Shown here piece by piece: positions 11,363 to 32,820 of a DNA stretch of 64,000 bases. Numbering within the stretch: the first letter of the stretch is position 1; every line of letters starts with the position of its first letter. The DNA comes from Variovorax sp. Lineage in GTDB: Bacteria > Pseudomonadota > Gammaproteobacteria > Burkholderiales > Burkholderiaceae_C. The position numbers and the translations under genes are program-made. Location: positions 53,844 through 117,843 of the forward strand of contig JAGIBP010000011.1 in the NCBI GenBank assembly GCA_017744285.1, read 5' to 3'. The notes beneath the pieces were generated by a model, which was given only the letters and a program-made list of their open reading frames with translations, had not been told where the DNA came from and did not search any database.

Positions 11363-13081
11363 GTGAGCAGCAGCGAGCTCGTGGACATACTCAGGACCCA
11401 TCCCGAAATAGCGCTCTTCCTGGTGCTGGCCCTCGGCCATGCCTTCGGCCAGATCCGCTTCGGCCCCATCCAGCTCGGCGGCGTCTGCGGCACACTCATC
11501 GTCGCGCTGCTCGTGGGACAGCTGGGCATCACGCTCGACAACGGCGTGAAGAACGTGTTCTTCATGCTCTTCATCTTCGCGCTCGGCTACGCCGGCGGAC
11601 CGCAGTTCTTCGCCAACCTCGATGCCAAGGGGCTGCGCATGGGGCTCCTGTGCCTCATCGAAGTGGTGGCGGTGATCGCGCTGGTGCTCGCGGCCGCGAG
11701 CTTCTTCGGCTTCGACCAGGGCACCGCCGCCGGGCTGATGGCCGGCGCGGCCACCGAGTCGGCGGTGGTCGGCACCGCGACGGATGCGATCTCCAAGCTG
11801 AGCCTGCCGCCCGACGAGATCCGTCAGCTCCAGGCCAACGTGGTGACCGCGTACTCGATCACCTACGTCTTCGGGCTGATCGCGATCGTGGTGATCACGA
11901 GCCAGGTCTTCCCGCTGCTGATGCGCATCGACCTGCGCGAGGAAGCCGACAAGCTCTGGCGCTCGATGGGCGGCCATGAGGACGACGACGGCGCCACGCT
12001 CGCCGCCCCCGAGATGGTGGGCCGGGTGTTCGACGTCACCACGGGCCGGGATCGCACCGTCGGCGAGCTGATGGACCCCTTCAAGCGCCGCGTCGGCATC
12101 GAGCGCGTGCTGCGCGACGGCCAATCGATGGACATCGGCGCCGCGCTGCGCCTTGCAGCAGGCGACCGCGTGCTGGTGGTCGGCCAGCGCGCGGCGATGG
12201 TCGAGGTGGCGGCCCTCATCGGACCGGAACGGGCCGACACCGCCGAGCTCGACGCGGTGATCGAGACCGTCGAGGTCATGCTGACCCAGCCCGAGTGGAT
12301 CGACCGCCAGCTGCGCGACCTCAAGGCCGACCGCCGCGGCGCGATCGACGCGCTGCCGAGATTGCCGCAGAACCTGCACGTGGTCGGCGTGGTCCGCGAC
12401 GGCCACGCGATGCCGCTGCTGCCGGACCTGCGGTTGAAGAAGCGCGACGTGCTGAAGCTCTACGGCCCCGCCGCCGACATGCCGAAGGCGGTCCCGCTCT
12501 TCGGCCTGCGCGTGATCCGTTCGACGCGCAGCAACATCAGCTACATGGCCGCCGGCATCCTGCTCGGGGTCTTCATCGGTGGCTTCAGCCTGAAGATCGG
12601 CGGCATCCCGTTCGCGCTCGGCACGGGCGGCGGCGCGCTGCTCACCGGACTCGTGTTCGGCTGGTTCCAGGCGCGCAACCCGCATCGGCTGAGCATTCCC
12701 GAGGGCGCGCTCGCGCTCATGAAGGACATCGGCCTGGCGACCTTCATCGCCTGCGTGGGACTCGCCTCGGGGCCGCAGGCGCTCACGCTGATCCGCAAGT
12801 TCGGCGTGGCGCTGCCGCTGCTGGGCATCGCGATCGCGCTGGTGCCGGCGTGCATCTCGCTCTTCGTCGGGCGCCGCCTGCTCAAGCTCGAGGCCCCGGT
12901 GCTGCTGGGCGCGATCGCGGGCCAGCAGTGCAGCACGCCGGCGCTCAGCGCGATCCAGAACGTGGCGGGCAACACCACGCCGCTGCTGGGCTACACGATC
13001 ACCTACGCGATCTCGAACGTGATCCTGCCGCTGATGGGCCCGCTGATCGTGGGCCTGGTCGGCGCGCTGCACGCGCAGTGA
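11363..13081 (+). CDS. aspartate:alanine exchanger family transporter (first copy)
   Basis: A 572-residue member of the AAEx family (AspT/YidE/YbjL). The architecture is two homologous membrane halves (about 1-190 and 390-572, each starting PEIALFLVLALGHAFGQIRFG-like or containing GGFSLKIGGIPFALGTGGGALL) separated by two soluble TrkA-C-like domains (about 200-370). AspT exchanges external aspartate for internal alanine; with decarboxylation inside the cell the cycle exports net charge. GTG at 11363 follows AAGGA at 9-nt spacing. The gene is followed by a paralogue and by aspartate 4-decarboxylase, which strongly supports the substrate. Confidence 0.85.
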   Translation: MSSSELVDILRTHPEIALFLVLALGHAFGQIRFGPIQLGGVCGTLIVALLVGQLGITLDNGVKNVFFMLFIFALGYAGGPQFFANLDAKGLRMGLLCLIEVVAVIALVLAAASFFGFDQGTAAGLMAGAATESAVVGTATDAISKLSLPPDEIRQLQANVVTAYSITYVFGLIAIVVITSQVFPLLMRIDLREEADKLWRSMGGHEDDDGATLAAPEMVGRVFDVTTGRDRTVGELMDPFKRRVGIERVLRDGQSMDIGAALRLAAGDRVLVVGQRAAMVEVAALIGPERADTAELDAVIETVEVMLTQPEWIDRQLRDLKADRRGAIDALPRLPQNLHVVGVVRDGHAMPLLPDLRLKKRDVLKLYGPAADMPKAVPLFGLRVIRSTRSNISYMAAGILLGVFIGGFSLKIGGIPFALGTGGGALLTGLVFGWFQARNPHRLSIPEGALALMKDIGLATFIACVGLASGPQALTLIRKFGVALPLLGIAIALVPACISLFVGRRLLKLEAPVLLGAIAGQQCSTPALSAIQNVAGNTTPLLGYTITYAISNVILPLMGPLIVGLVGALHAQ

Positions 13082-13124
13082 GCCAGCAGACAACAACCCA
13101 GCAAGCCTCGAAAGGATCCGGACC

Positions 13125-14813
13125 ATGGAATGGCTGCACGACGTCTTCAAGCGCTCGCCGGAGATGGCGCTCTTCCTCTCGCTTTCCGTCGGCTACGCCA
13201 TCGGCAAGCTCAAGTTCGGCAAGTTCCAGCTCGGCGGCGTGGCGGGCTCGCTGCTCGTCGCGGTGGTCGTCAGCCAGGTGGGCGTGGAGGTCGACGCCGG
13301 GGTGAAGGCGGTGCTCTTCGCCCTCTTCATCTACGCGGTGGGCTTCGAAAGCGGGCCGCAGTTCTTCAGCTCCCTGGGCAAGCAGTCGCTCAAGGAAATC
13401 GTGCTCGCCGTGGTGATGGCGGCCACCGGCCTGCTGACCGTGCTCGTCATGGCGAAGATGTTCTCGCTCGACAAGGGGCTCGCCGCGGGCGTGGCGGCCG
13501 GCGGGCTCACGCAGTCGGCCATCATCGGCACGGCGGGCGACGCGATCGCCAAGCTCGGCCTCTCGGCCGACGAGACCCGCAGGCTGCAGGCCAACGTGGC
13601 GATCGGCTACGCGGTGACCTACGTGTTCGGCTCCTTCGGCGCGATCATCGTGTGCGTCAACATCCTGCCGAAGTTCATGGGGCGCTCGATCCGCGACGAC
13701 GCGATCGCCGCCGAGACCGCGATGCAGGCCGGCCGGGCGGCCCTCGGCCCCGACCAGTCGGCCGCCGCGCCCGCGCTGGTGGGCCGCATCTACGAACTCG
13801 CGAGCGACGCGGGCCGCACCGTGTCCGAGATCGAGTACGAGACGCCCGACACCACCATCACCATCGAGCGCATCAAGCGCGGGGGCAAGTTCATCGAGGT
13901 CGGGCCCGAGCTGCGGCTGCAGAAGGGCGACATCGTGCTGGTGGTCGGCCGGCGCGAGGCGGTCGTCCGCGCCGCATCGATGTTCGGCCGCGAGCTGTTC
14001 GACGTCGAAGGCATGGAGCTCACCATGCAGCGGCGCGAGATCGTGCTGGCCAACAAGGCACTGGCGCAGAAGACCATCGGCCAGATCCGCGACGCGACCA
14101 CGAGCGCCACGCGGCATGGCATCTTCCTCGTGAGCATCAGCCGCGGCGGCAAGACATTGCCGCTCGCGAACGACACCACGGTGCAGCTGGGCGACACGGT
14201 GACCCTCTTCGGCGCCGAGCAGGACCTCAAGCGCGTGTCGGCGCGCATCGGCGAGGCCATCGTGCAGACGACCAAGACCGACTTCGTCTATCTCGGCGCG
14301 GGCCTGGTGGTCGGCCTGCTGATCGGCCTGGTCAGCGTGAAGCTCGGCGACATTCCGCTCACGCTCGGCAGCGGCGGCGGCGCGCTGCTCTCGGGGCTGA
14401 TCTTCGGCTGGTACCGGTCGCGGCGGCAGACCTTCGGCGCGCTGCCGTCCGCCGCCGGCCAGCTGCTCAAGGACCTCGGCCTCGCGGGCTTCGTGGCGGT
14501 GGTGGGGCTGTCGTCGGGCCTGCAGGCGGTCGAGACCATCAAGGCCCAGGGCCTGACCATCTTCATCGTCGGCGTGATCGTGACGATCGTGCCGATGATC
14601 ATCACGATGCTGATCGGCCGCTGGCTGCTGCGCTACGACAACGTGGCGGTCTTCGCGGGCGCGCTCTCGGGCTCGCGCAGCGCCAACCCCGCCTTCGGCG
14701 AAGTGCTCGACAAGGCCGAGAACTCGATCCCGACCGTTCCGTTCGCGATCACCTACGCGCTGGCCAACGTGCTCTTGACGCTGCTCGGCCCGCTGATCGT
14801 GGCGCTGGCCTGA
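13125..14813 (+). CDS. aspartate:alanine exchanger family transporter (second copy)
   Basis: 562 residues with the same plan as the preceding gene: N-terminal membrane half (PEMALFLSLSVGYAIGKLKFG), central pair of TrkA-C-like domains (VGRIYELASDAGRTVSEIE... and LANDTTVQLGDTVTLFG) and C-terminal membrane half (KLGDIPLTLGSGGGALLSGL). An AAAGGAT-type ribosome site lies ahead of the ATG. The two copies are clearly diverged, so they either form a heteromer or differ in affinity or substrate. The decarboxylase gene starts 51 bp downstream. Confidence 0.85.
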   Translation: MEWLHDVFKRSPEMALFLSLSVGYAIGKLKFGKFQLGGVAGSLLVAVVVSQVGVEVDAGVKAVLFALFIYAVGFESGPQFFSSLGKQSLKEIVLAVVMAATGLLTVLVMAKMFSLDKGLAAGVAAGGLTQSAIIGTAGDAIAKLGLSADETRRLQANVAIGYAVTYVFGSFGAIIVCVNILPKFMGRSIRDDAIAAETAMQAGRAALGPDQSAAAPALVGRIYELASDAGRTVSEIEYETPDTTITIERIKRGGKFIEVGPELRLQKGDIVLVVGRREAVVRAASMFGRELFDVEGMELTMQRREIVLANKALAQKTIGQIRDATTSATRHGIFLVSISRGGKTLPLANDTTVQLGDTVTLFGAEQDLKRVSARIGEAIVQTTKTDFVYLGAGLVVGLLIGLVSVKLGDIPLTLGSGGGALLSGLIFGWYRSRRQTFGALPSAAGQLLKDLGLAGFVAVVGLSSGLQAVETIKAQGLTIFIVGVIVTIVPMIITMLIGRWLLRYDNVAVFAGALSGSRSANPAFGEVLDKAENSIPTVPFAITYALANVLLTLLGPLIVALA

Positions 14814-16487
<1,674 letters not shown>

Positions 16488-21885: not shown

Positions 21886-22554
21886 TCAGAAGCCCTTGAA
21901 CTCGTGGTTGATGCCGATCGCGTAGCCCCGCACGCGCTCGGGCCCGTTGCGGGCGCCGCTCAGGTCGACGCTGGTGGTCGGCGCGAGGCTGATCCGCAGC
22001 CCGCCGCGCGACGTCCACACCCCGACCGACCGGAAGCGCTCGACGATCAGCGTGAAGCGATCGTTCATCGCCCATTCGGCCTGCGCGCCGCCGCGGCCGG
22101 TGCGCTCGCCGGTGCCGGGGGCCCAGTCGAGGCCGAGGTTCGCATGCAGCCACAGGCTGTCGAGCGCCCGCCAGCTCACGGGCAGCAGGACCTGCCCGCC
22201 GGTACGCCCGCCGCGCGTGACGTCGAAGTTCGGGCCCGCCGAGGCCGCCATCGCGAAGCGGGCCTCTTCGTCGCGGCCCACGAAGGTCCATTTGACCTGC
22301 GGCCCCACGACGTAGGCGAATTCGCCCGGGACCGCATAGCGGTCGATGTTGAGCCTCACCTCGACCGGGCCGATGCCGCAGGCCGGGCCGAGGTGGTAGT
22401 CCGACACCCGGTCCACACCGAAGCGGCCGGCCCACGCCTCGACCTGGCATTGGCCGGGATCGAGGGTGCCCGCGTCGTCGACGTCGAAGTGGCCGCCCGC
22501 GTGCGCCGTCGCGGCGAGGCAGCCAGGCAAGAGAGCGAGGAGGTATCGGACCAT
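21886..22554 (-). CDS. exported beta-rich protein, probably outer-membrane
   Basis: 222 residues with a Sec signal peptide (MVRYLLALLPGCLAATAHAG, cleavage near residue 19). The rest is a succession of short amphipathic strands with Gly and aromatic residues (EVRLNIDRYAV, QVKWTFVG, LWLHANLGLDW, AQAEWAMNDRFTLIVERF) ending in a C-terminal phenylalanine (HEFKGF), which is the pattern of an outer-membrane beta-barrel. The ATG at 22554 gives the cleanest signal peptide. It lies downstream of the response regulator on the same strand, 73 bp away. Function not recognised. Confidence 0.6.
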   Translation of the reverse strand: MVRYLLALLPGCLAATAHAGGHFDVDDAGTLDPGQCQVEAWAGRFGVDRVSDYHLGPACGIGPVEVRLNIDRYAVPGEFAYVVGPQVKWTFVGRDEEARFAMAASAGPNFDVTRGGRTGGQVLLPVSWRALDSLWLHANLGLDWAPGTGERTGRGGAQAEWAMNDRFTLIVERFRSVGVWTSRGGLRISLAPTTSVDLSGARNGPERVRGYAIGINHEFKGF

Positions 22555-22627
22555 GGCGGCGGTTCGGGTGGGGCGGAGTCGCATCATGCGCCGGTTTCGT
22601 GACACCTTTCGATGTCCGGGCCAGGGC

Positions 22628-23640
<1,013 letters not shown>

Positions 23641-23644
<4 letters not shown>

Positions 23645-26600
23645 GCGGCCCTCGCTGCCGCGGCGAGCGCGCGGCCCATGGCGTCGAACTGGAACTGGCG
23701 GGCCAGCGCGCGCTGCGCGGTGGTCCATTCCGCGCACTCGGGCTGCGCGGCGTCGATGTCGTCGAGCTGGTTCATGATTCCGCGAAAGTAGCCGAGGCCC
23801 ACGGCCTCTTCGAGTGCGCGCAGGCGCTCGGGCGCGGGCACCGCCGCGCGCGGCACCTGCCGGGCGGGCGCTGGCGCGGCGGCCGCGCATTCGGTCCACT
23901 GCAGGGCCAGCCGGCGCTCGAGCCAGTCGAGCAGTTCGCTGTGCCGCACCGGCTTGACGAAGAAGTCCTCGGGCGCGATGCCGGCGTCGTTCTCCAGCCG
24001 CTTGTCGAAGGCATTGGCGGAGACGATCGCGACCGGTGCGTTCGCGAGGCCGAGCGCGCGCGACCGGCGGATGGTCTCCCAGCCGTCGATGCCGGGCATC
24101 GCGAGGTCGACGAACATCGCATCGGGGCGCCAGCCGGCCGCGATCAGGTCGAGCGCGTCATGGCCGCTCGCCGCGGTGCGAAGCTCGAAGCCGAGCGGCG
24201 CGAGCAGCTGCTCCAGCAGCTCGCGGTCGGCCTCCTCGTTGTCGACCACCAGCACGCGGCGGCGCCGGCCTTCGTAGCCCCTGCGCGGGCGGGGGGCGGG
24301 CATGCGGCGCGCGTTCGCGGCCGGGGCGTCGTGCACGTGCGGCAGGAACAGCCGCAGGCGGAACACCGAGCCCTGGCCGGGCGTGCTCTGCACCGTCATC
24401 TCGCCGCCCATGAGGTCGATCAGCATCTTCGCGATCGTGAGCCCCAGCCCGGCGCCCGAGGCGGCGCCGGCCGCGGTCGAGCCGCGCGCGAAGGGCTCGA
24501 AGATGCGGCCCAGCTCCTCGCTGGACATGCCGGGGCCTGTGTCCTCGATCTCGATCGCGGCGAACTCGCGCGCATAGCGCAGGCGCAGCACGACTTCGCC
24601 CGCCGCGGTGAACTTGATCGCGTTGCCCAGCAGGTTGATGAGGATCTGACGCACGCGCTTCTCGTCGGCGCGCACGATCTCCGGCAGCGCGCCGGCGGGC
24701 TCGAAGCGGAAGGCCAGGCCCTTCTCGAAGGCCTGCAGCTCGAACATGTCCGCCAGCTCGCGCATCACCTCGGCGAAGCGCATCGGCTTCGCATTCAGCG
24801 TGAGCTTGCCGGCCTCGATGTGCGCGATGTCGAGCGTGCCTTCGATCAGCGACAGCAGGTGTTCGCCGCCGCGCTTGATCACCGCCACCGCCTGGCGCCG
24901 GTGCGGCGGCACCGCGGTGTCCTCGCCCATGAGCTGCGCATAGCCGAGGATGCTGTTGAGCGGCGTGCGCAGCTCGTGGCTGATCGCGCTGATGTAGCGG
25001 CTCTTGGCCTGGTTGGCCTGCTCGGCCGTGCGCTTGGCCTCCTGCAGCGCGCGGTCGGTGGCGCGGTGCAGCTCGATCTCTCGCATCAGGAGGTGGGTCT
25101 GGCGGTTGGACTCTTCCTGCGCCACCTTGCGGCTCTGGTGCGCGAGCACCAGCCACCAGGCGACGATGCCCGCGATCAGCAGCAGCGCCATGTAGGCCTT
25201 GAGGAAGCCCGCGCGCAGCGCGGCGGGTTGCATGTCGAGCATCGCGCCTTCGGTGAGCGCCGACTCGGCCAGCGCGCGCAGTTCCTGCTGGTAGAGCACG
25301 CCGAACACCGCCGCGAGCAGCGGCGCGAGGATCAGCATCAGCAGCAGGAAGTGGCCGAGGCCGGTGTCGAGATAAGGCCACACGCGGCGCGGCAGCAGCC
25401 AGCGCAGCGCGCCCGACCACTGTGCCGCGAGGCTCGCCTGCGGCTTGCACAGGTCGCCGCAGCGCGCGTCGAGCGTGCAGCACAGCGAGCAGATCGGGCC
25501 CTGGTAGGCCGGGCAGTGCGCCATGTCGGGCGCTTCGTAGTCGCGCTCGCAGATCGCGCACCGCTGCACGGCCAGGCGCTGGTAGCGGCCGGCATCGGCC
25601 TCGACGCGCGCCCAGTGCACCTCGCGCTGCGGGGCCGGGTCGGGCGTTCGTGCGATGTAGTAGCGGCCGCGCGTGGCCCAGGCGATGACGGGCGACGCCA
25701 CGAACGCCGTGCCCAGCGCGATCAGCGCCGAGAACGCCTGCGCCAGCGGCCCGAACACGCCCAGGTGCGCGGTGATCGACACCACCGAGGCCAGCGCCAT
25801 CGCGCCGACACCCACGGGGTTGATGTCCCACAGGTGCGCGCGCTTGAACTCGATGCCGGGCGGCGAGAGCCCGAGCGGCTTGTTGACCACCAGGTCCGCC
25901 ACCACCGCCATCATCCAGGCGATGGCGATGTTGGCGTAGAGCCCGAGCACGTCGCCCAGCGCCTCGAACACGTTCATCTCCATGAGCATGAAGGCGATCA
26001 GCGCGTTGAACACCACCCACACCACGCGCCCGGGATGGCTGTGCGTCACGCGCGAGAAGAAGTTGCTCCACGCCAGCGAGCCGGCATAGGCGTTGGTGAC
26101 GTTGATCTTGAGCTGCGAGATGACGACGAACACCGCGGTGGCGAGCACCGCCCAGCCGTAGTTCGGGAACACGTACTCGTAGGCCGCCAGGTACATCTGG
26201 TTCGGATCGACGGCGCGCTCGGGCGGCACCATGTGGCCGATCGCCAGGTAGGCGAGCAGCGCGCCGCCGAGCATCTTGAGCACGCCGAGCACCACCCACC
26301 CCGGCCCACCCGCGAGCACTCCGGCCCACCAGCGTCCGCGCGTGGCCGGCGTGCGGGTGGGCATGAAGCGCAGGTAGTCCGCCTGCTCGCCCATCTGCGT
26401 GATGAGCGCGATGCCCACGGTGAGCGCGGCACCGAAAAGGTGCAGATCGAAGCCGGTCGACGAAGCCTTGACCCCGACATAGTGCGCGATGCCGGAAAAC
26501 GCACCAGGATCGCGCGCCAGCACGTAGCCGAAGGGCACCACCAGCATCAGGAGCCAGATGGGCTGCGTCCACACCTGCAGCCGGCTGATCGCCGAGATGC

Positions 26601-27153
26601 CGTGCGTCACCAGCGGGATCACCACCAGCGCGCACACCAGGTAGCCCCACACCGGCGGAATGCCCAGCGCCAGTTCCAGCGCATAGGCCATCACCGCCGC
26701 TTCGAGCGCGAAGAAGATGAAGGTGAAGCAGGCGTAGATCAGCGAGGTGAGCGTGGACCCGATATAGCCGAAGCCCGCGCCGCGCGTGAGCAGGTCCATG
26801 TCGACGCCGTAGCGCGCCGCGTAGACGCTGATCGGCAGCCCCGCGAGGAAGATGATGAGCCCCGTGGCGAGGATCGCCCAGAAGGCATTGACGAAGCCGT
26901 ACTGCACCAGCAGCGTCGCGCCAACCGCCTCGAGGATCAGGAACGAGGCCGCGCCGCCGAAGGCGGTGCTCGCGACGCGCCATTCGGGCATGCGGCGGAA
27001 GCGCTGCGGCGTGTAGCGCAGCGCATAGTCCTCCAGCGTCTCGCGGGCGACCCAGCTGTTGTAGTCGCGCCGGACCTTGACGATGCGCTGCGGCGCGTCG
27101 TCGTCGCTCGGGGCGGGGGTGGCGGCGGTCGTGGGCACGGGGAGACGGTGCAA
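23641..27153 (-). CDS. NCS1-type permease fused to a hybrid histidine kinase with receiver
   Basis: A 1170-residue fusion. Residues about 30-495 form a nucleobase:cation symporter-1 (NCS1, cytosine/allantoin/uracil permease) fold with about 12 helices. Residues 532-569 are a cysteine cluster (C532, C535, C547, C555, C558, C559, C565, C569) probably binding zinc. Two more helices (about 600-620, 653-672) and a coiled coil lead to a HisKA domain with His726 (ISHELRTP), an HATPase domain with N844 and DTGPGM at 871-876, and a receiver with Asp1016. The start is uncertain: TTG at 27153 or GTG at 27138, neither with a clear ribosome site. By analogy with permease-kinases such as CbrA, it probably senses a transported nitrogen compound and drives the adjacent regulator. 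Confidence 0.88.
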
Positions 27154-27180
27154 CAGTCATGCCACGGCACGACTGTTGCA
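27149..27180. promoter_or_regulatory. 32-bp near-perfect dyad between the sensor kinase and urease genes
   Basis: The arms TGCAACAGTC (27149-27158) and GACTGTTGCA (27171-27180) match perfectly, and the centre adds TGCC/GGCA (27160-27163 and 27166-27169), so 14 of 16 position pairs are complementary. It overlaps the -35 box of the likely ureA promoter and the most upstream possible start codon of the kinase. It is a strong operator candidate for a dimeric regulator, perhaps the adjacent LuxR-type regulator. Confidence 0.7.
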
Positions 27181-27233: not shown

Positions 27234-27536
27234 ATGGAACTGACACCCAGAGAAAAAGACAAGCTGCTCATCTTCACCGCCGCCCTGCTGGCCGAGCGGC
27301 GCCGCGCACGCGGCCTGAAGCTCAACTACCCCGAGGCCGTGGCCCTGATCTCGGCCGCCGTGATGGAAGGCGCGCGCGACGGCAAGAGCGTGGCCGCCCT
27401 CATGAGCGAAGGCCGCGCCGTGCTGACCCGCGCCGACGTGATGGACGGCGTGCCGGAAATGATTCCGGACATCCAGGTCGAGGCCACGTTCCCCGACGGC
27501 ACCAAGCTCGTCACCGTGCATCAGCCGATCGTCTGA
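27234..27536 (+). CDS. ureA: urease gamma subunit
   Basis: The 100-residue product has the standard gamma-subunit sequence and length: [23 protein letters not shown] at the start, [12 protein letters not shown] at about 30-40 and [18 protein letters not shown] at the end. It forms the (UreA-UreB-UreC)3 apoenzyme that hydrolyses urea to ammonia and carbamate in the cytoplasm. The ATG at 27234 is preceded by AAGG. First gene of the operon. Confidence 0.96.
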
Positions 27537-27573: not shown

Positions 27574-28170
27574 ATGCGCTCCATCCGCCGTTCATCCGCG
27601 CTCGCCCTGCTGATCGCCCTGCCGCTGGCCGCCGGCGCCCACACGGGTGTCGATGCGCACCACCATCACGGCTTCGCGGCCGGCTTTCTTCATCCGCTGA
27701 CCGGGGCCGACCACCTGGCGGCGATGGTCGCGGTCGGCCTCTGGAGCGCCCTCGCCGCACGCCGCGCATGGCCCGACCTGCTCTGGGCGCCGCTGGGCTT
27801 CGCCGCGATGCTGCTGGCCGGTGCGCTGGCCGGGCTCGCGGGGATCGGGCTGCCGGCGGTCGAACCGATGATCGCGGCCTCGCTGCTGGTGCTCGGCCTG
27901 CTGGTGGCCACGCAGCGCCGCCTGCCGGCATTCGCCGCGGCGTCGCTGGTCGGCGTGTTCGCGCTCTTCCATGGCGCCGCGCACGGGCAGGAGCTCGCCG
28001 CCGACGCCGCCGCGCCGATGCTGGCGGGCATGCTCGCGGCCACCGTGCTGCTGCACGCCACGGGCGTCGCCATCGGCTGGGCGCTGCGGCACGGCCATCG
28101 CTGGATGCCGCGCGCGGCAGGTGCCGCGGTGGCGCTGTTCGGCGCCGTGTTGCTCGGCGGCCTGGCCTGA
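27574..28170 (+). CDS. ureJ: HupE/UreJ-family probable nickel transporter
   Basis: 198 residues with an N-terminal signal-like helix, a histidine cluster ([25 protein letters not shown], about 27-50) and six predicted transmembrane helices. The HPxxGxDHxxxM motif is the HupE/UreJ signature, thought to bind Ni2+ for entry. HupE/UreJ genes are commonly placed inside urease or hydrogenase operons; here it lies between ureA and ureB with short gaps of 37 and 10 bp. Confidence 0.88.
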
Positions 28171-28180
28171 GGCGGCGCCG

Positions 28181-28486
28181 ATGATTCCCGGCGAACTCAT
28201 CACCGACGCGGGCGAGCACGTCCTCAATCCGGGCCGGCGCACGCTCACGCTGGTCGTGCGCAACACTGCCGACCGGCCGATCCAGGTCGGTTCCCACTAC
28301 CACTTCGCGGAGACCAACGGCGCGCTCGGCTTCGACCGCGAGGCCGCGCGCGGCATGCGGCTGCACATCGCCTCGGGCACCGCGGTGCGCTTCGAGCCCG
28401 GCCAGCAGCGCACCGTCGAACTGGTCGATTTCGCAGGCGACCGCGTGGTCTACGGCTTCCGCGGCCTGGTGCAAGGAAAACTTTGA
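28181..28486 (+). CDS. ureB: urease beta subunit
   Basis: 101 residues beginning MIPGELI and carrying the conserved [15 protein letters not shown] segment and [10 protein letters not shown], which is the full-length beta-subunit pattern. The stop shares one base with the ureC ATG (TGATG), so translation is coupled. Confidence 0.96.
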
Positions 28487-30204
28487 TGGCAACGATCTCC
28501 CGCCGCGCCTACGCGGAAATCTTCGGCCCCACCGTGGGCGACCGCGTGCGCCTCGCGGACACCGACCTCGTGATCGAGGTCGAGGAGGACTACACCCTGC
28601 ACGCCGGCGGCTACGGCGAAGAGGTCAAGTTCGGCGGCGGCAAGACCATCCGCGACGGCATGGCGCAGGGCCAGCGCACGCGCGCCGAGGGCACGGTCGA
28701 CACCGTGATGACCAACGCGCTCATCCTCGACCACTGGGGCATCGTGAAAGCCGACATCGGCCTGAAGGACGGCCGCATCGTCGCCATCGGCAAGGCCGGC
28801 AATCCGGACGTGCAGCCCGGCGTGGACATCGTGATCGGCGCGGGCACCGAGGTCATCAGCTGCGAAGGGAACATCGTCACGGCCGGCGGGATCGACAGCC
28901 ACATCCATTTCATCTGCCCGCAGCAGATCGAGGAGGCGCTGGCCTCGGGCGTGACCACCATGCTGGGCGGCGGCACCGGCCCCGCGACCGGCACCTTCGC
29001 GACCACCGCGACGCCGGGACCGTGGCACATCGAGCGCATGCTGCAGGCGGCCGATGCCTTTCCGATGAACCTCGGCTTTCTCGGCAAGGGCAACGCGAGC
29101 CTGCCGGCCGCGCTGCACGAACAGATCGACGCCGGCGTGATCGGCCTCAAGCTGCACGAGGACTGGGGCACCACGCCGGCCGCGATCAGCAACTGCCTGG
29201 ACGTGGCCGACGCCACCGACACGCAGGTGGCGATCCACAGCGACACGCTCAACGAATCGGGCTTTGTGGAGAACACCATCGCGGCGGTGGCCGGCCGCGC
29301 GATCTGCGCCTTCCACACCGAGGGCGCGGGCGGCGGCCATGCGCCGGACATCCTGCGCGTGGTGGGCGAGGCGAACTTCCTGCCCTCCTCCACCAACCCG
29401 ACGATGCCCTACACGGTGAACACGCTCGACGAGCACGTCGACATGCTCATGGTGTGCCACCACCTCGACGCCGGCATCGCGGAGGACCTCGCCTTCGCCG
29501 AGAGCCGCATCCGCAAGGAGACCATCGCGGCCGAGGACATCCTGCACGACATGGGCGCGATCAGCATGTTCAGCTCCGACAGCCAGGCCATGGGCCGCGT
29601 CGGCGAGGTGATCCTGCGCTGCTGGCAGAGCGCCCACAAGATGAAGGCGCAGCGCGGCAAGCTGCCGGAGGACAGCGCGCGCAACGACAACTTCCGCGCC
29701 AAGCGCTACGTGGCCAAGTACACGATCAATCCCGCCATCGCGCACGGCATCTCGCACGAGGTGGGCAGCATCGAGGTCGGCAAGTGGGCCGACCTGGTGG
29801 TGTGGAAGCCGGCCTTCTTCGGCGTGAAGCCCTTCACCATCATCAAGGGCGGCACGATCGCGATGGCCGCGATGGGCGACCCCAACGCCTCGATTCCGAC
29901 GCCGCAGCCGGTGCACTACCGGCCGATGTTCGGCGCCTTCGGGGGCTCGGTCGCCAGGAGCTCGCTGACCTTCGTCTCGCAATCCGGGCTCGCGGCCGGC
30001 ATCGGCACGCGCTACGGGCTCGCGAAGACGCTCAGCGCGGTGAAGAACATCCGCGCGGTGCGCAAGCAGCACATGGTGCACAACGCCTGCGCGCCGCGGA
30101 TGGAGATCGACCCGCAGACCTACGCGGTGCGCGCGGACGGGGTGCTGCTGACCTGCGAGCCGGCGGCGGTGCTGCCGATGGCGCAGCGGTACTTCTTGTT
30201 CTGA
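28486..30204 (+). CDS. ureC: urease alpha (catalytic) subunit
   Basis: The 572-residue alpha subunit has all active-site residues. Numbering is offset by +5 from Klebsiella urease: nickel ligands His139 and His141 (DSHIHFICP), carbamylated Lys222 (GLKLHEDWG), His251, His277 and Asp365, plus the mobile flap MVCHHLD with Cys324 and His325. The ATG at 28486 is preferred over the TTG one codon upstream because of the one-base overlap with ureB and the AAGGAAAA upstream. The enzyme is expected to be active if matured. The next gene on this strand is ureE, after an inserted toxin-antitoxin pair. Confidence 0.97.
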
Positions 30205-30209
30205 GGCGG

Positions 30210-30602
30210 TCAGCGACCGCGCGGCTGGAAATGCTCTCGAATCCAGGCAGCCAGGCGCTGTTCCTCCATGGCGCCTGCGGCAACGTCCTGCATGGTCAAC
30301 GTGGCTTCAGCCTGTCCAACCGCCAAGCGCCAGCCATTCAACGCCAAGAACAGGCCGAGTGCCAGGAAGGCCGCCCGCTTGTTGCCGTCGACGAAGGGGT
30401 GGTTCTTCGCCAGGCCCAAGGCATAGGTTGCCGCAAGAGCGGCAACATCCGGTTCTCCGTAGGCCACCAGATTGAGCGGCCGGGCCAGCGCAGATCGAAG
30501 CAGGACCTCGTCACGCAACCCCGGAGCCCCGCCGTGCTCCGCCAGGCTTTCGTCGTGCAGCAGCACGAGGGTGGCTTGATCCACCCGGCGCCACGACGTC
30601 AT
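30210..30602 (-). CDS. Doc-type Fic-fold toxin (death-on-curing family)
   Basis: 130 residues with the Fic/Doc catalytic motif HPFVDGNKRAAF near residue 68-79 and the family start HDESLAEHGGAPGLRDEVLL. Doc toxins phosphorylate EF-Tu and block translation, and are neutralised by a small antitoxin; the Doc variant of the motif (HxFxxGNKR) is present. Its start overlaps the antitoxin stop by 4 bp. It sits tail to tail with ureC, 5 bp apart, inside the urease cluster. Confidence 0.88.
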   Translation of the reverse strand: MTSWRRVDQATLVLLHDESLAEHGGAPGLRDEVLLRSALARPLNLVAYGEPDVAALAATYALGLAKNHPFVDGNKRAAFLALGLFLALNGWRLAVGQAEATLTMQDVAAGAMEEQRLAAWIREHFQPRGR

Positions 30603-30861: not shown

Positions 30862-30887
30862 GCCACCCTCTCCCCCTTCAAGCCAGC

Positions 30888-31475
30888 ATGCTCACAGCCA
30901 ACAAACTCATGCCCCAGGGCGGCGGCCTCGCGCCCGTCCTGTTGAAACGCGCCGCCACGGTCGAACTCGACTGGGACGTGCGCCAGAAGAGCCGTTTCGA
31001 CATCACCGATTCGCAGGGGCGGCCCATCGGCGTCTTCCTGCCGCGCGGCACCGCGGTGCGCGGCGGCGACGTGCTGGTGGCCGAGGACGGCTCGCTGATC
31101 CGCGTGATCGCGGCCGCGCAGCCCGTGATGGTCATCACCCACTGCCGCGAGCACGGCACGCCCTTCGACCTGCTGCGCGCGGCCTACCACCTCGGCAACC
31201 GGCACGTGCCGATCGAACTCAAGCCCGACCATCTGAAGATCGAACCCGACCACGTGCTCGCGGGCATGCTGCGCTCGATGCACCTGATCGTGCGCGAGGC
31301 CGAGGAGGCCTTCGAGCCCGAAGGCGGCGCCTACGGCGCGCACGGGCATTCGCATGGCGGCGGCGCGGCGCCGGTCGGGCCGGTGCTGCATCCGGATGCG
31401 TATTCGGGCAGCCACGATCACGGCCATGGCCATGACCACCACGGTCACGGCCACGATCACTCGCACGGCCACTGA
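30888..31475 (+). CDS. ureE: urease nickel metallochaperone UreE
   Basis: 195 residues: N-terminal peptide-binding domain (about 1-75), C-terminal metal-binding domain with [29 protein letters not shown] and the conserved interface histidine, and a histidine-rich tail (about 150-195) with 15 His residues. UreE delivers Ni2+ to the UreG complex. The ATG at 30888 has only a weak ribosome site. Its stop overlaps the ureF ATG by one base. Separated from ureC by the toxin-antitoxin genes. Confidence 0.93.
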
Positions 31476-32164
31476 TGGACGACGCACCGGCCGCCCTGCC
31501 CGCCACCAGCCTGCTGCAACTGATCTGGCTGGCGTCGCCGGCCCTGCCGGTCGGCGGCTTCTCGTACTCGGAAGGGCTCGAGGCGGGCATCGAATGGGCC
31601 GGCATCGGCACCGAACAGGCAGCGGCCGACTGGCTGGCCGACCAGCTTCACCTGAGCCTCGCGCGCGCCGACCTCGCGGTGGTGGCGCAGGCGGTGCCGG
31701 CCTGGCGCCGCGGCGACCTGCAATGCATCGAGGCGCTCAACGACTGGGTCTTCCAGACCCGCGAATCCGCCGAGTTCCGGCTGCAGACCGAGCAGATGGG
31801 CCGCTCCTTCGTCGAATGGCTCAAGCTGCACCATGCCGACGCGGCGCAGGTCTTCGGCGAGCTGCCGGCGAGCTACCCGGTGGCCTTCGCGTTCGCGGCG
31901 AGCCGCACCGCCGCCAGCGCGCACGATGCCTGCCTGGCCTTCGCCTTCGGCTGGGCCGAGAACATGACCGCCGCGGCCGTGAAGGCGGTGCCGCTCGGCC
32001 AGAGCGCCGGCCAGCGCATGCTGGCGCGACTGGCGGACGAAATCCCCACGGCGGTGCGGCAGGCGCTCACACTGTCGGACGACGACCGGCAGGCCTTTTC
32101 CCCCATGCTGGCCGTGCTCTCGTCCCGGCACGAAACGCAGTACTCGCGACTTTTCAGAAGCTGA
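31475..32164 (+). CDS. ureF: urease accessory protein UreF
   Basis: 229 residues with the UreF helical fold: [21 protein letters not shown] (about 13-33), then the arginine-rich and [21 protein letters not shown] region and a C-terminal SGQRMLARL segment. UreF activates and controls the UreG GTPase within the UreD-UreF-UreG complex bound to apo-urease. One-base overlap with ureE and 5 bp from ureG show one transcript. Confidence 0.93.
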
Positions 32165-32169
32165 ACACC

Positions 32170-32820
32170 ATGACCTCCGCCCTTCATCACATTCCCCACC
32201 GCACCAAGAGACTGCCCCCGCTGCGCGTGGGCATCGGCGGCCCGGTCGGCTCCGGCAAGACCACGCTGCTGGAGATGCTCTGCAAGGCGATGCGCGAGAA
32301 GTACGACCTCGTCGCGATCACCAACGACATCTACACCAAGGAAGACCAGCGCCTGCTCACCGTGGCCGGCGCGCTGCCGGCCGAGCGCATCATGGGCGTG
32401 GAGACCGGCGGCTGTCCGCACACGGCGATCCGCGAGGATGCCTCGATCAACCTCGAAGCCATCGACCGCATGCTGGCGCAGTTCCCGGACGCGGACGTGG
32501 TGTTCGTCGAATCGGGCGGCGACAACCTGGCCGCCACCTTCAGCCCCGAGCTGTCGGATCTCACGATCTACGTGATCGACGTCGCGGCCGGCGAGAAGAT
32601 TCCGCGCAAGGGCGGCCCGGGCATCACCAAGAGCGACCTGTTCGTGATCAACAAGACCGACCTGGCGCCCCACGTCGGTGCCGACCTGGGCGTGATGGAG
32701 GCCGACACGAAGCGCATGCGCAAGCAGCGGCCCTTCGTGATGACCAACCTCAAGACGCTGTCGGGCCTCCAGGAAGTGATCGCCTTCATCGAGGACCGCG
32801 GCATGCTGACCCAGCGCTGA
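32170..32820 (+). CDS. ureG: urease accessory GTPase UreG
   Basis: 216 residues with P-loop [11 protein letters not shown] (23-33), the nickel-binding invariant CPH ([14 protein letters not shown]), FVESGGDNL and the NKTDL guanine-specificity motif. UreG is the SIMIBI GTPase that couples GTP hydrolysis to nickel insertion into UreC. It is the last gene of the cluster; no ureD/ureH follows. Confidence 0.96.

Follow-up and report, generated by a model that had tools for sequence, protein, structure and literature searches.

Which signal would a kinase joined to a permease report, when its gene stands back to back with a urease operon? The question is raised by a gene in a 64,000-nucleotide stretch of a Variovorax sp. 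genome (GenBank assembly GCA_017744285.1, contig JAGIBP010000011.1, positions 53,844 to 117,843). The whole stretch is called the window here and positions are counted from its first letter. An initial annotation had read the gene as an NCS1 permease-histidine kinase-receiver fusion, a nitrogen sensor controlling urease and possibly gated by purine or pyrimidine breakdown products, with a cysteine cluster that would sense metal or redox state. From the genes that accompany its relatives, we consider it likely that the fusion is a permease-derived membrane receptor kinase for urea, in a family whose other members probably sense formamide, acetamide and similar short-chain amides.

The fusion is encoded by a single open frame of 1170 residues that runs from 27153 to 23641 on the minus strand. 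The frame had been noted before with no strand given. Its parts are:

23641..27153, minus strand: fusion gene (NCS1-like permease, cysteine cluster, two transmembrane helices, HisKA, HATPase, receiver), start codon uncertain, TTG at 27153 or GTG at 27138
25639..27090, minus strand: permease-like module, divergent NCS1, residues 22-505 (PF02133 matches of the relatives L227 and L255, the A2 profile described below, hydropathy)
25447..25560, minus strand: eight-cysteine cluster, residues 532-569, predicted to be cytoplasmic (motif scan of loci)
25141..25350, minus strand: two extra transmembrane helices ahead of the kinase, residues 602-671 (hydropathy)
24808..25008, minus strand: HisKA with His726 (Pfam and residue check)
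24343..24666, minus strand: HATPase_c with Asn844 (Pfam and residue check)
23923..24255, minus strand: receiver domain with Asp1016 (Pfam and residue check)

Pfam places HisKA at residues 716-782, HATPase_c at 830-937 and Response_reg at 967-1077. With all three domains present and the His, Asn and Asp in place, the protein is a hybrid histidine kinase. These three residues are where the initial annotation had put them, and so are the eight cysteines (C532, 535, 547, 555, 558, 559, 565 and 569). Hydropathy, a rough method, agrees with its count of about 12 helices (residues 60-491) and two more (602-620 and 653-671). The GC content by codon position (0.70/0.48/0.95), the relatives in named genomes (at least 582 among at least 596 pattern hits) and the cysteine spacing C-x2-C-x11-C-x7-C-x2-CC-x5-C-x3-C, which all 133 loci scanned encode, argue that the frame is not a chance one. 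The fusion architecture is confirmed as real. Since the TTG at 27153 falls within a sigma-54-like element (27150-27164), the real start is probably further in; the next in-frame candidate is the GTG at 27138. Those annotated records that name its product call the fusion ATP-binding protein, response regulator, ArcB or hybrid histidine kinase.

We surveyed the surroundings of related fusions in two even draws of genomes, one from the class and one from the phylum, and in named genomes. At E<=0.001 the class draw has matches in 21 of its 369 genomes and the phylum draw in 58 of 398. Strong matches were found in 52 of the 398, at 57 places that all lie in frames of at least 894 residues; the other six genomes, with weak or partial matches only, were left out. 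The phylum census uses 55 of the 57 places, as G147 was counted in the class draw and G674 was not fetched. Urease, a UrtA-type substrate-binding protein, formamidase (FmdA) or aliphatic amidase (AmiE) is encoded in the fetched stretch at 53 of the 55 loci opened (urease at 12, the UrtA-type protein at 44, formamidase at 36 and aliphatic amidase at 19). The two unlinked loci are on pieces of 11.3 and 4.8 kb, truncated by contig ends. Over the 54 loci other than the window, the median distance from the fusion match to the start of the nearest urea or amide gene is 334 bp, and 46 loci have one less than 2 kb away. A related LuxR-type regulator adjoins the fusion in 48 of 55. One example each of the UrtA-type protein of both branches, formamidase and aliphatic amidase exceeded its NCBIfam cut-off. 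None of 10 control stretches had such genes, a small control in which two of the three pieces taken from the window overlap and the remaining seven are other loci.

The best 80 of the at least 582 named relatives, mostly from Comamonadaceae and other Betaproteobacteria, encode urease at 61 loci (60 by the gene caller), a UrtA-type protein at 26 and any of the four at 66; formamidase and AmiE are encoded at none of the 80. Within the genus of the window, 16 of 24 sampled relatives have two or more fusion copies. All eight urease-side copies opened are beside urease genes. The copies of the second kind, about 52-57% identical, are beside formamidase in 9 of 9 cases and also beside a UrtA-type gene in 8 of 9. 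This second, formamidase-type arrangement prevails among the genomes from other classes of the phylum. The phylum draw, the named loci with urease and the copies in the genus together bear out the nitrogen role linked to urease that had been proposed for the fusion.

Relatives are also found in 539 of 72556 plasmid records, 342 of the 539 being labelled Klebsiella. The fusion occurs with a transporter, formamidase and a nitrilase-family gene on the Burkholderia vietnamiensis plasmid pBVIE02, with urease on a Mitsuaria plasmid, and with formamidase and AmiS/UreI on a Paracoccus plasmid. In the one fusion-bearing Klebsiella record opened, pMB8251_1 (L307), it is divergent from urtABCDE and formamidase. 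The plasmid records show that such clusters travel together, as would be expected if the fusion were shared cargo of nitrogen-gene islands and its kinase controlled something else. However, close linkage is kept across phylum-wide draws while the partner changes between urease, Urt, formamidase and amidase, a permease-only gene and AmiS/UreI. We regard shared cargo as highly improbable.

The gating by purine or pyrimidine breakdown products fared differently. The ligands would then be allantoin, hydantoin or uracil, with urease as the last step of purine breakdown. NCS1 proteins classically carry such compounds, and some free-standing relatives of the permease module are annotated as allantoin permease or cytosine permease, others as hypothetical protein. 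We looked for two marker families only, hydantoinase (TIGR02033, E<=1e-60) and the uricolytic OHCU decarboxylase (PF09349), covering 50 of the 52 phylum-draw genomes that carry a fusion; some fusions are near contig ends, where a few neighbours may be unseen. Both markers are common, with the decarboxylase in 44 of the 50 genomes and hydantoinase/dihydropyrimidinase in 35 (30 above cut-off). Yet neither lies within 10 kb of the fusion in any of the 50. The nearest, by hand from their positions, are an OHCU decarboxylase at about 19 kb (G751) and, in favour of the proposal, hydantoinase or dihydropyrimidinase genes at 24-31 kb in four related genomes (G441, G499, G641 and G653). The genes that do adjoin the fusion encode urease, UrtA-type proteins, formamidase, amidase and in one record AmiS/UreI, and neither formamidase nor aliphatic amidase has a place in purine breakdown. 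We therefore rejected purine or pyrimidine products as the main ligands, a reading we hold to be very unlikely. The expected linkage thus held for nitrogen genes, though less well in the class draw considered below, and not for the two purine and pyrimidine markers.

Relatives of the permease module that lack a kinase also bear on the ligand. We opened 20 such loci, leaving out G799 and several plasmid records: nine have urease genes, seven formamidase and four neither. Seven of the nine come from genomes of a single genus, one of them with its frame broken, and the other two from Klebsiella pneumoniae and Acinetobacter lwoffii. Of the seven formamidase loci, five also have AmiE together with a divergent fusion, and Tsukamurella and Moraxella supply the other two. 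In some genomes a permease-only homologue takes the place that is divergent from the fusion or within the urease operon; in one record AmiS/UreI does. Permease-only genes occupy the position that the urea or amide ABC transporter has elsewhere, and their taking its place is the strongest hint to the ligand class. From gene context at 16 of the 20 loci, these proteins may be urea/amide transporters. In the Klebsiella pneumoniae urease operon, ureG is followed by a gene annotated as a cytosine permease (L312:6971-8578), which encodes a free-standing relative of the permease module in the window.

The module is also joined to other outputs. At L303 (7248-10919, minus strand) the permease, cysteine cluster and two helices precede PAS-GGDEF-EAL in place of a kinase. 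Four kinase fusions (L219, L220, L271 and L309) have no attached receiver, L220 as judged by eye and length and the others by Pfam; L219, L220 and L309 adjoin formamidase. A module found ahead of receiver-less kinases and PAS-GGDEF-EAL is as expected of a sensory input. On balance we favour the view that the module represents an undescribed NCS1 subfamily for urea and short-chain amides, whose free-standing members would be overlooked secondary transporters and whose fused members would be dedicated receptors on hybrid kinases, plain kinases and a cyclic-di-GMP enzyme. A neighbour of the L303 gene resembles RuBisCO by eye.

The NCS1 character of the N-terminus was reached through homologues, while Pfam gave nothing directly for the window protein. 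L227, a permease-only protein that is about 44% identical and whose gene follows ureG, matches PF02133 (E 8.6e-8, 31.8 bits, cut-off 23.5), as does L255, a 99% copy (28.8 bits). The profile A2, built from fusions, permeases and NCS1-type rows (4 of its 10 rows being NCS1-type), finds CodB, the cytosine permease 7qoa (E 1.1e-15), and Mhp1, 2jln (E 4.6e-13). The profile A1, which has no NCS1-type rows, gave only a weak CRIPT-like match (E 0.47) and recovered neither structure. As a sole query against the PDB the N-terminus gave nothing useful, and scanned alone against Pfam it gave one match, DUF7534 (E 0.14), which we took for noise. No PF02133 match was found in the permease-only proteins of L226, L259, L261, L264, L265 and L308, and Pfam showed no NCS1 match in the fusions L219, L226, L303, L230, L271, L307 and L309. 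L138, which has an internal stop, was left out of the structure alignment. The earlier NCS1 claim thus stands as to ancestry, through L227/L255 and A2, and not as to the window protein itself, which is below Pfam NCS1. By these intermediates the N-terminus is a divergent NCS1 relative and not a member by its own Pfam test.

The A2 alignment, read by hand, puts N351/N354 at Mhp1 N314/N318, F147 at W117, E151 at Q121 and K349 at S312; S312 is the sodium-site serine of Mhp1. Like Mhp1 and CodB, the module shows a profile match along the helices, the N-x2-N-x-Y motif of TM8 and a similar helix count. Unlike them, the window protein has no Pfam match, a glutamate (E151) at Mhp1 Gln121, a lysine (K349) at the sodium-site serine and a fused kinase. 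The sodium site of CbrA likewise is described as holding a lysine (PMC13022988). E151 is common to 72 of 73 fusions, and Q253, Q257, D259, K349, N351, N354 and Y356 to all 73; every one of the 17 permease-only proteins has all eight of these putative pocket residues. Fusions and permeases are told apart at >=85% by eight alignment columns, including 71 and 74 in TM1 and 152 in TM3, and column 75 differs too. In TM1 the fusions have F71/L74/E75, whereas nearly all permeases have Y71/D74/F-or-Q75.

These residues bear on whether the N-terminus still transports and signals by its flux, as a true transceptor would, or is a receptor that does not transport. A transceptor would be a variant of the receptor kinase for urea and does not exclude it. 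The pocket residues shared by fusions and permease-only relatives suit a transceptor, and CbrA is reported to transport histidine (PMC13022988). The TM1 difference speaks the other way, since transport may become uncoupled when position 74 is no longer acidic. We consider a transceptor somewhat unlikely. In the tree the free-standing L227 and L226 branch outside the fusions, which suggests that the sensor was derived from a permease; the place of L226 is weakly supported (88/46), L227 has a long branch, and the outgroup contained four sequences in duplicate. The closest relative of the window in this tree that bears a name is a Variovorax.

The eight-cysteine cluster follows the permease module. 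Since some permease-only relatives have the complete cluster too, it is not a module peculiar to kinases. It is probably a structural metal-binding knuckle. It is degenerate in the permease-only genes of urease operons at L255-L260, intact beside formamidase at L261-L263 and L265, and degraded in the Tsukamurella permease-only relative. The tail of L227 showed a likeness to tetraheme cytochromes (E 0.0014), which was set aside because the fusion motif has no CxxCH. If the cluster read a metal or redox state, such as the nickel supply for urease, the permease part would be only an anchor. That every fusion locus scanned keeps the eight cysteines is consistent with this, as is the HupE/UreJ gene in the urease operon; urease needs nickel. 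However, the same module is found at formamidase and amidase loci where no urease gene was found in the stretch. The cluster is also kept in permease-only relatives beside formamidase, yet degenerate in those urease-operon ones whose tails were examined, and the putative pocket residues are strongly conserved. A metal or redox signal is unlikely.

Between the fusion and the urease operon lies a short control region with the following features, given with the regulator that adjoins the fusion on its other side:

27150..27164, minus strand: sigma-54-like element toward the fusion, TGGCATGACTGTTGC
27165..27179, plus strand: sigma-54-like element toward ureA, CGGCACGACTGTTGC, abutting the 27150..27164 element
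27234..27536, plus strand: ureA (urease gamma), divergent from the fusion, ATG at 27234
22628..23644, minus strand: response regulator, receiver and LuxR/GerE, its own ATG overlapping the TGA of the fusion

The two abutting elements have the form GG-N10-GC, one each way, and each matches 10 of 11 letters of the sigma-54 consensus. On both sides the pattern lies near the start, as in a sigma-54-dependent gene judged by sequence. A long inverted repeat upstream of the window gene, first taken as an operator, is better read as these two facing elements. Elements with at least 9 of 11 letters occur on the fusion side of 64 and on the other side of 44 of 83 upstream regions of the urease clade, compared with 41 and 26 of 1290 controls; for members below 66% identity the counts are 13 and 1 of 45. 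The dyad TACG-N8-CGTA is present in 25 of these latter 45 regions; none of the 83 regions from the urease clade has it, and among controls it occurs in 36 of 1286. The upstream sets include near-identical strains and are not independent. Formamidase is encoded at 24 of the 25 dyad loci and the remaining one (L081) is cut by a contig end. The dyad is thus a candidate regulator site of the amide branch only, with a spacing like that of NarL sites. It was seen upstream of L040-L047, L192-L199 and others.

Taken as a receptor kinase for urea, the fusion could work as follows. The divergent NCS1-fold module would form the ligand site, and urea in the window, or a small amide in the sister branch, would bind the permease-like pocket. 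Movement driven by the ligand could then reach the kinase by way of the cysteine cluster and the hairpin of two helices. The phosphoryl group would move from His726 to Asp1016, in the receiver of the fusion itself, before it reaches the LuxR-type regulator of the adjacent gene, possibly with an Hpt protein serving the receiver-to-receiver step. The regulator would act on the shared intergenic region and adjust the divergent catabolic or uptake operon. The sigma-54-like elements on both sides would allow general nitrogen limitation to gate the same operons through NtrC as a second condition.

Several observations weigh against a urea and amide receptor kinase of NCS1 descent. The smaller class draw has only 9 of 16 loci linked; these 16 remained of 24 places after removal of those that were weak or partial, lay in the genome of the window, were second copies or held only a permease. 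Among the seven unlinked loci, L301 is a contig of 5.7 kb and at L273 the sequence breaks off immediately upstream of the fusion; L230, L303, L271, L272 and L298 show neighbours, none of them urea or amide genes. Fourteen of the 80 named loci, mainly from Zoogloea, Denitromonas and other Rhodocyclales, lack these genes, eight of them on stretches of at least 20 kb. Four of the 20 permease-only loci have no urea or amide neighbour, and none of the 57 phylum-draw places is permease-only, so such relatives are patchy. As to the fold, no Pfam family, NCS1 (PF02133) included, was found in residues 1-690 of the window protein at E<=1, PF02133 had no match in the genome of the window, and its cut-off was passed by only two of eight permease-only proteins, near copies of each other. 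A LuxR-type regulator is not known to be a sigma-54 activator, so that its place in the circuit is tentative.

Kinases fused to transporters are already known as the SLC5/STAC family (PMC9100948, PMC13022988), of which CrbS and RpuS are described as hybrid kinases (PMC5715377; PMC9100948). The likeness of layout to CbrA that had been pointed out holds, as CbrA, CrbS and RpuS also join a transporter-like N-terminus to a histidine kinase in one chain and regulate the use of small molecules. They differ in having SLC5 and STAC domains, unlike the divergent NCS1 permease, eight-cysteine cluster and two helices here, and in serving acetate, histidine or pyruvate instead of standing with urea and amide genes. 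Neither an SLC5 nor a STAC domain is among the Pfam families listed for the window protein, the existence of a Pfam STAC model being unchecked.

AmiC and AmiR, the latter an antiterminator, similarly provide amide-responsive control of aliphatic amidase. AmiC is described as the ligand sensor of amide regulation (PMC13209695); unlike the fusion it is a binding protein, a comparison made by description and not by sequence. An amiE-fmdA-fmdB-urtABCDE cluster is described, in the available part of the same source, without amiC or amiR (PMC13209695). The fmdCABDEF cluster of Methylophilus likewise brings together formamidase and amide/urea uptake genes, and is reported to be induced by formamide and urea and repressed by ammonia (PMC10781810). 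Compared by description, it differs in that the available text names a putative positive regulator alone and mentions no kinase (PMC10781810). A search of one literature library, mostly at the level of its listings, turned up no description of an NCS1-kinase fusion or of a comparable receptor kinase for urea and amides.

In bacteria, expression of urease, urea uptake and amidases is switched on by their substrates; the available account of the Methylophilus formamidase cluster does not name its sensor (PMC10781810). A specific receptor-regulator pair, with the strong matches in 52 of 398 phylum genomes, would make the question of how the inducer is sensed directly testable. If the proposal is true, free-standing permeases in urease operons, including one from Klebsiella, would be reassigned from cytosine to urea, and a second transporter family would join the short list of transporter-derived kinases.

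The remaining genes around the fusion in the window are:

21886..22605, minus strand: outer-membrane-protein-like gene, downstream of the regulator (by eye)
27574..28170, plus strand: HupE/UreJ
28181..28486, plus strand: ureB (urease beta), read by eye and used as a reference for neighbour matching
28486..30204, plus strand: ureC (urease alpha)
30885..31475, plus strand: ureE (start approximate)
31475..32164, plus strand: ureF
32170..32820, plus strand: ureG, read by eye and used as a reference for neighbour matching

The outer-membrane-protein-like gene has no Pfam or NCBIfam match, and its relatives are found in 12 of the 80 named loci. A Fic/Doc-family gene (30210-30602, minus strand) sits between ureC and ureE, with similar genes there in L069, L070, L078 and L097. 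The sole ureD match of the 69% complete genome is on another contig than the urease operon (G000:C41:67671-68276). Further off in the window, at 11363-16487 on the plus strand, two tandem AspT-like transporter genes are followed by an aspartate-decarboxylase-like gene, as read by eye only.

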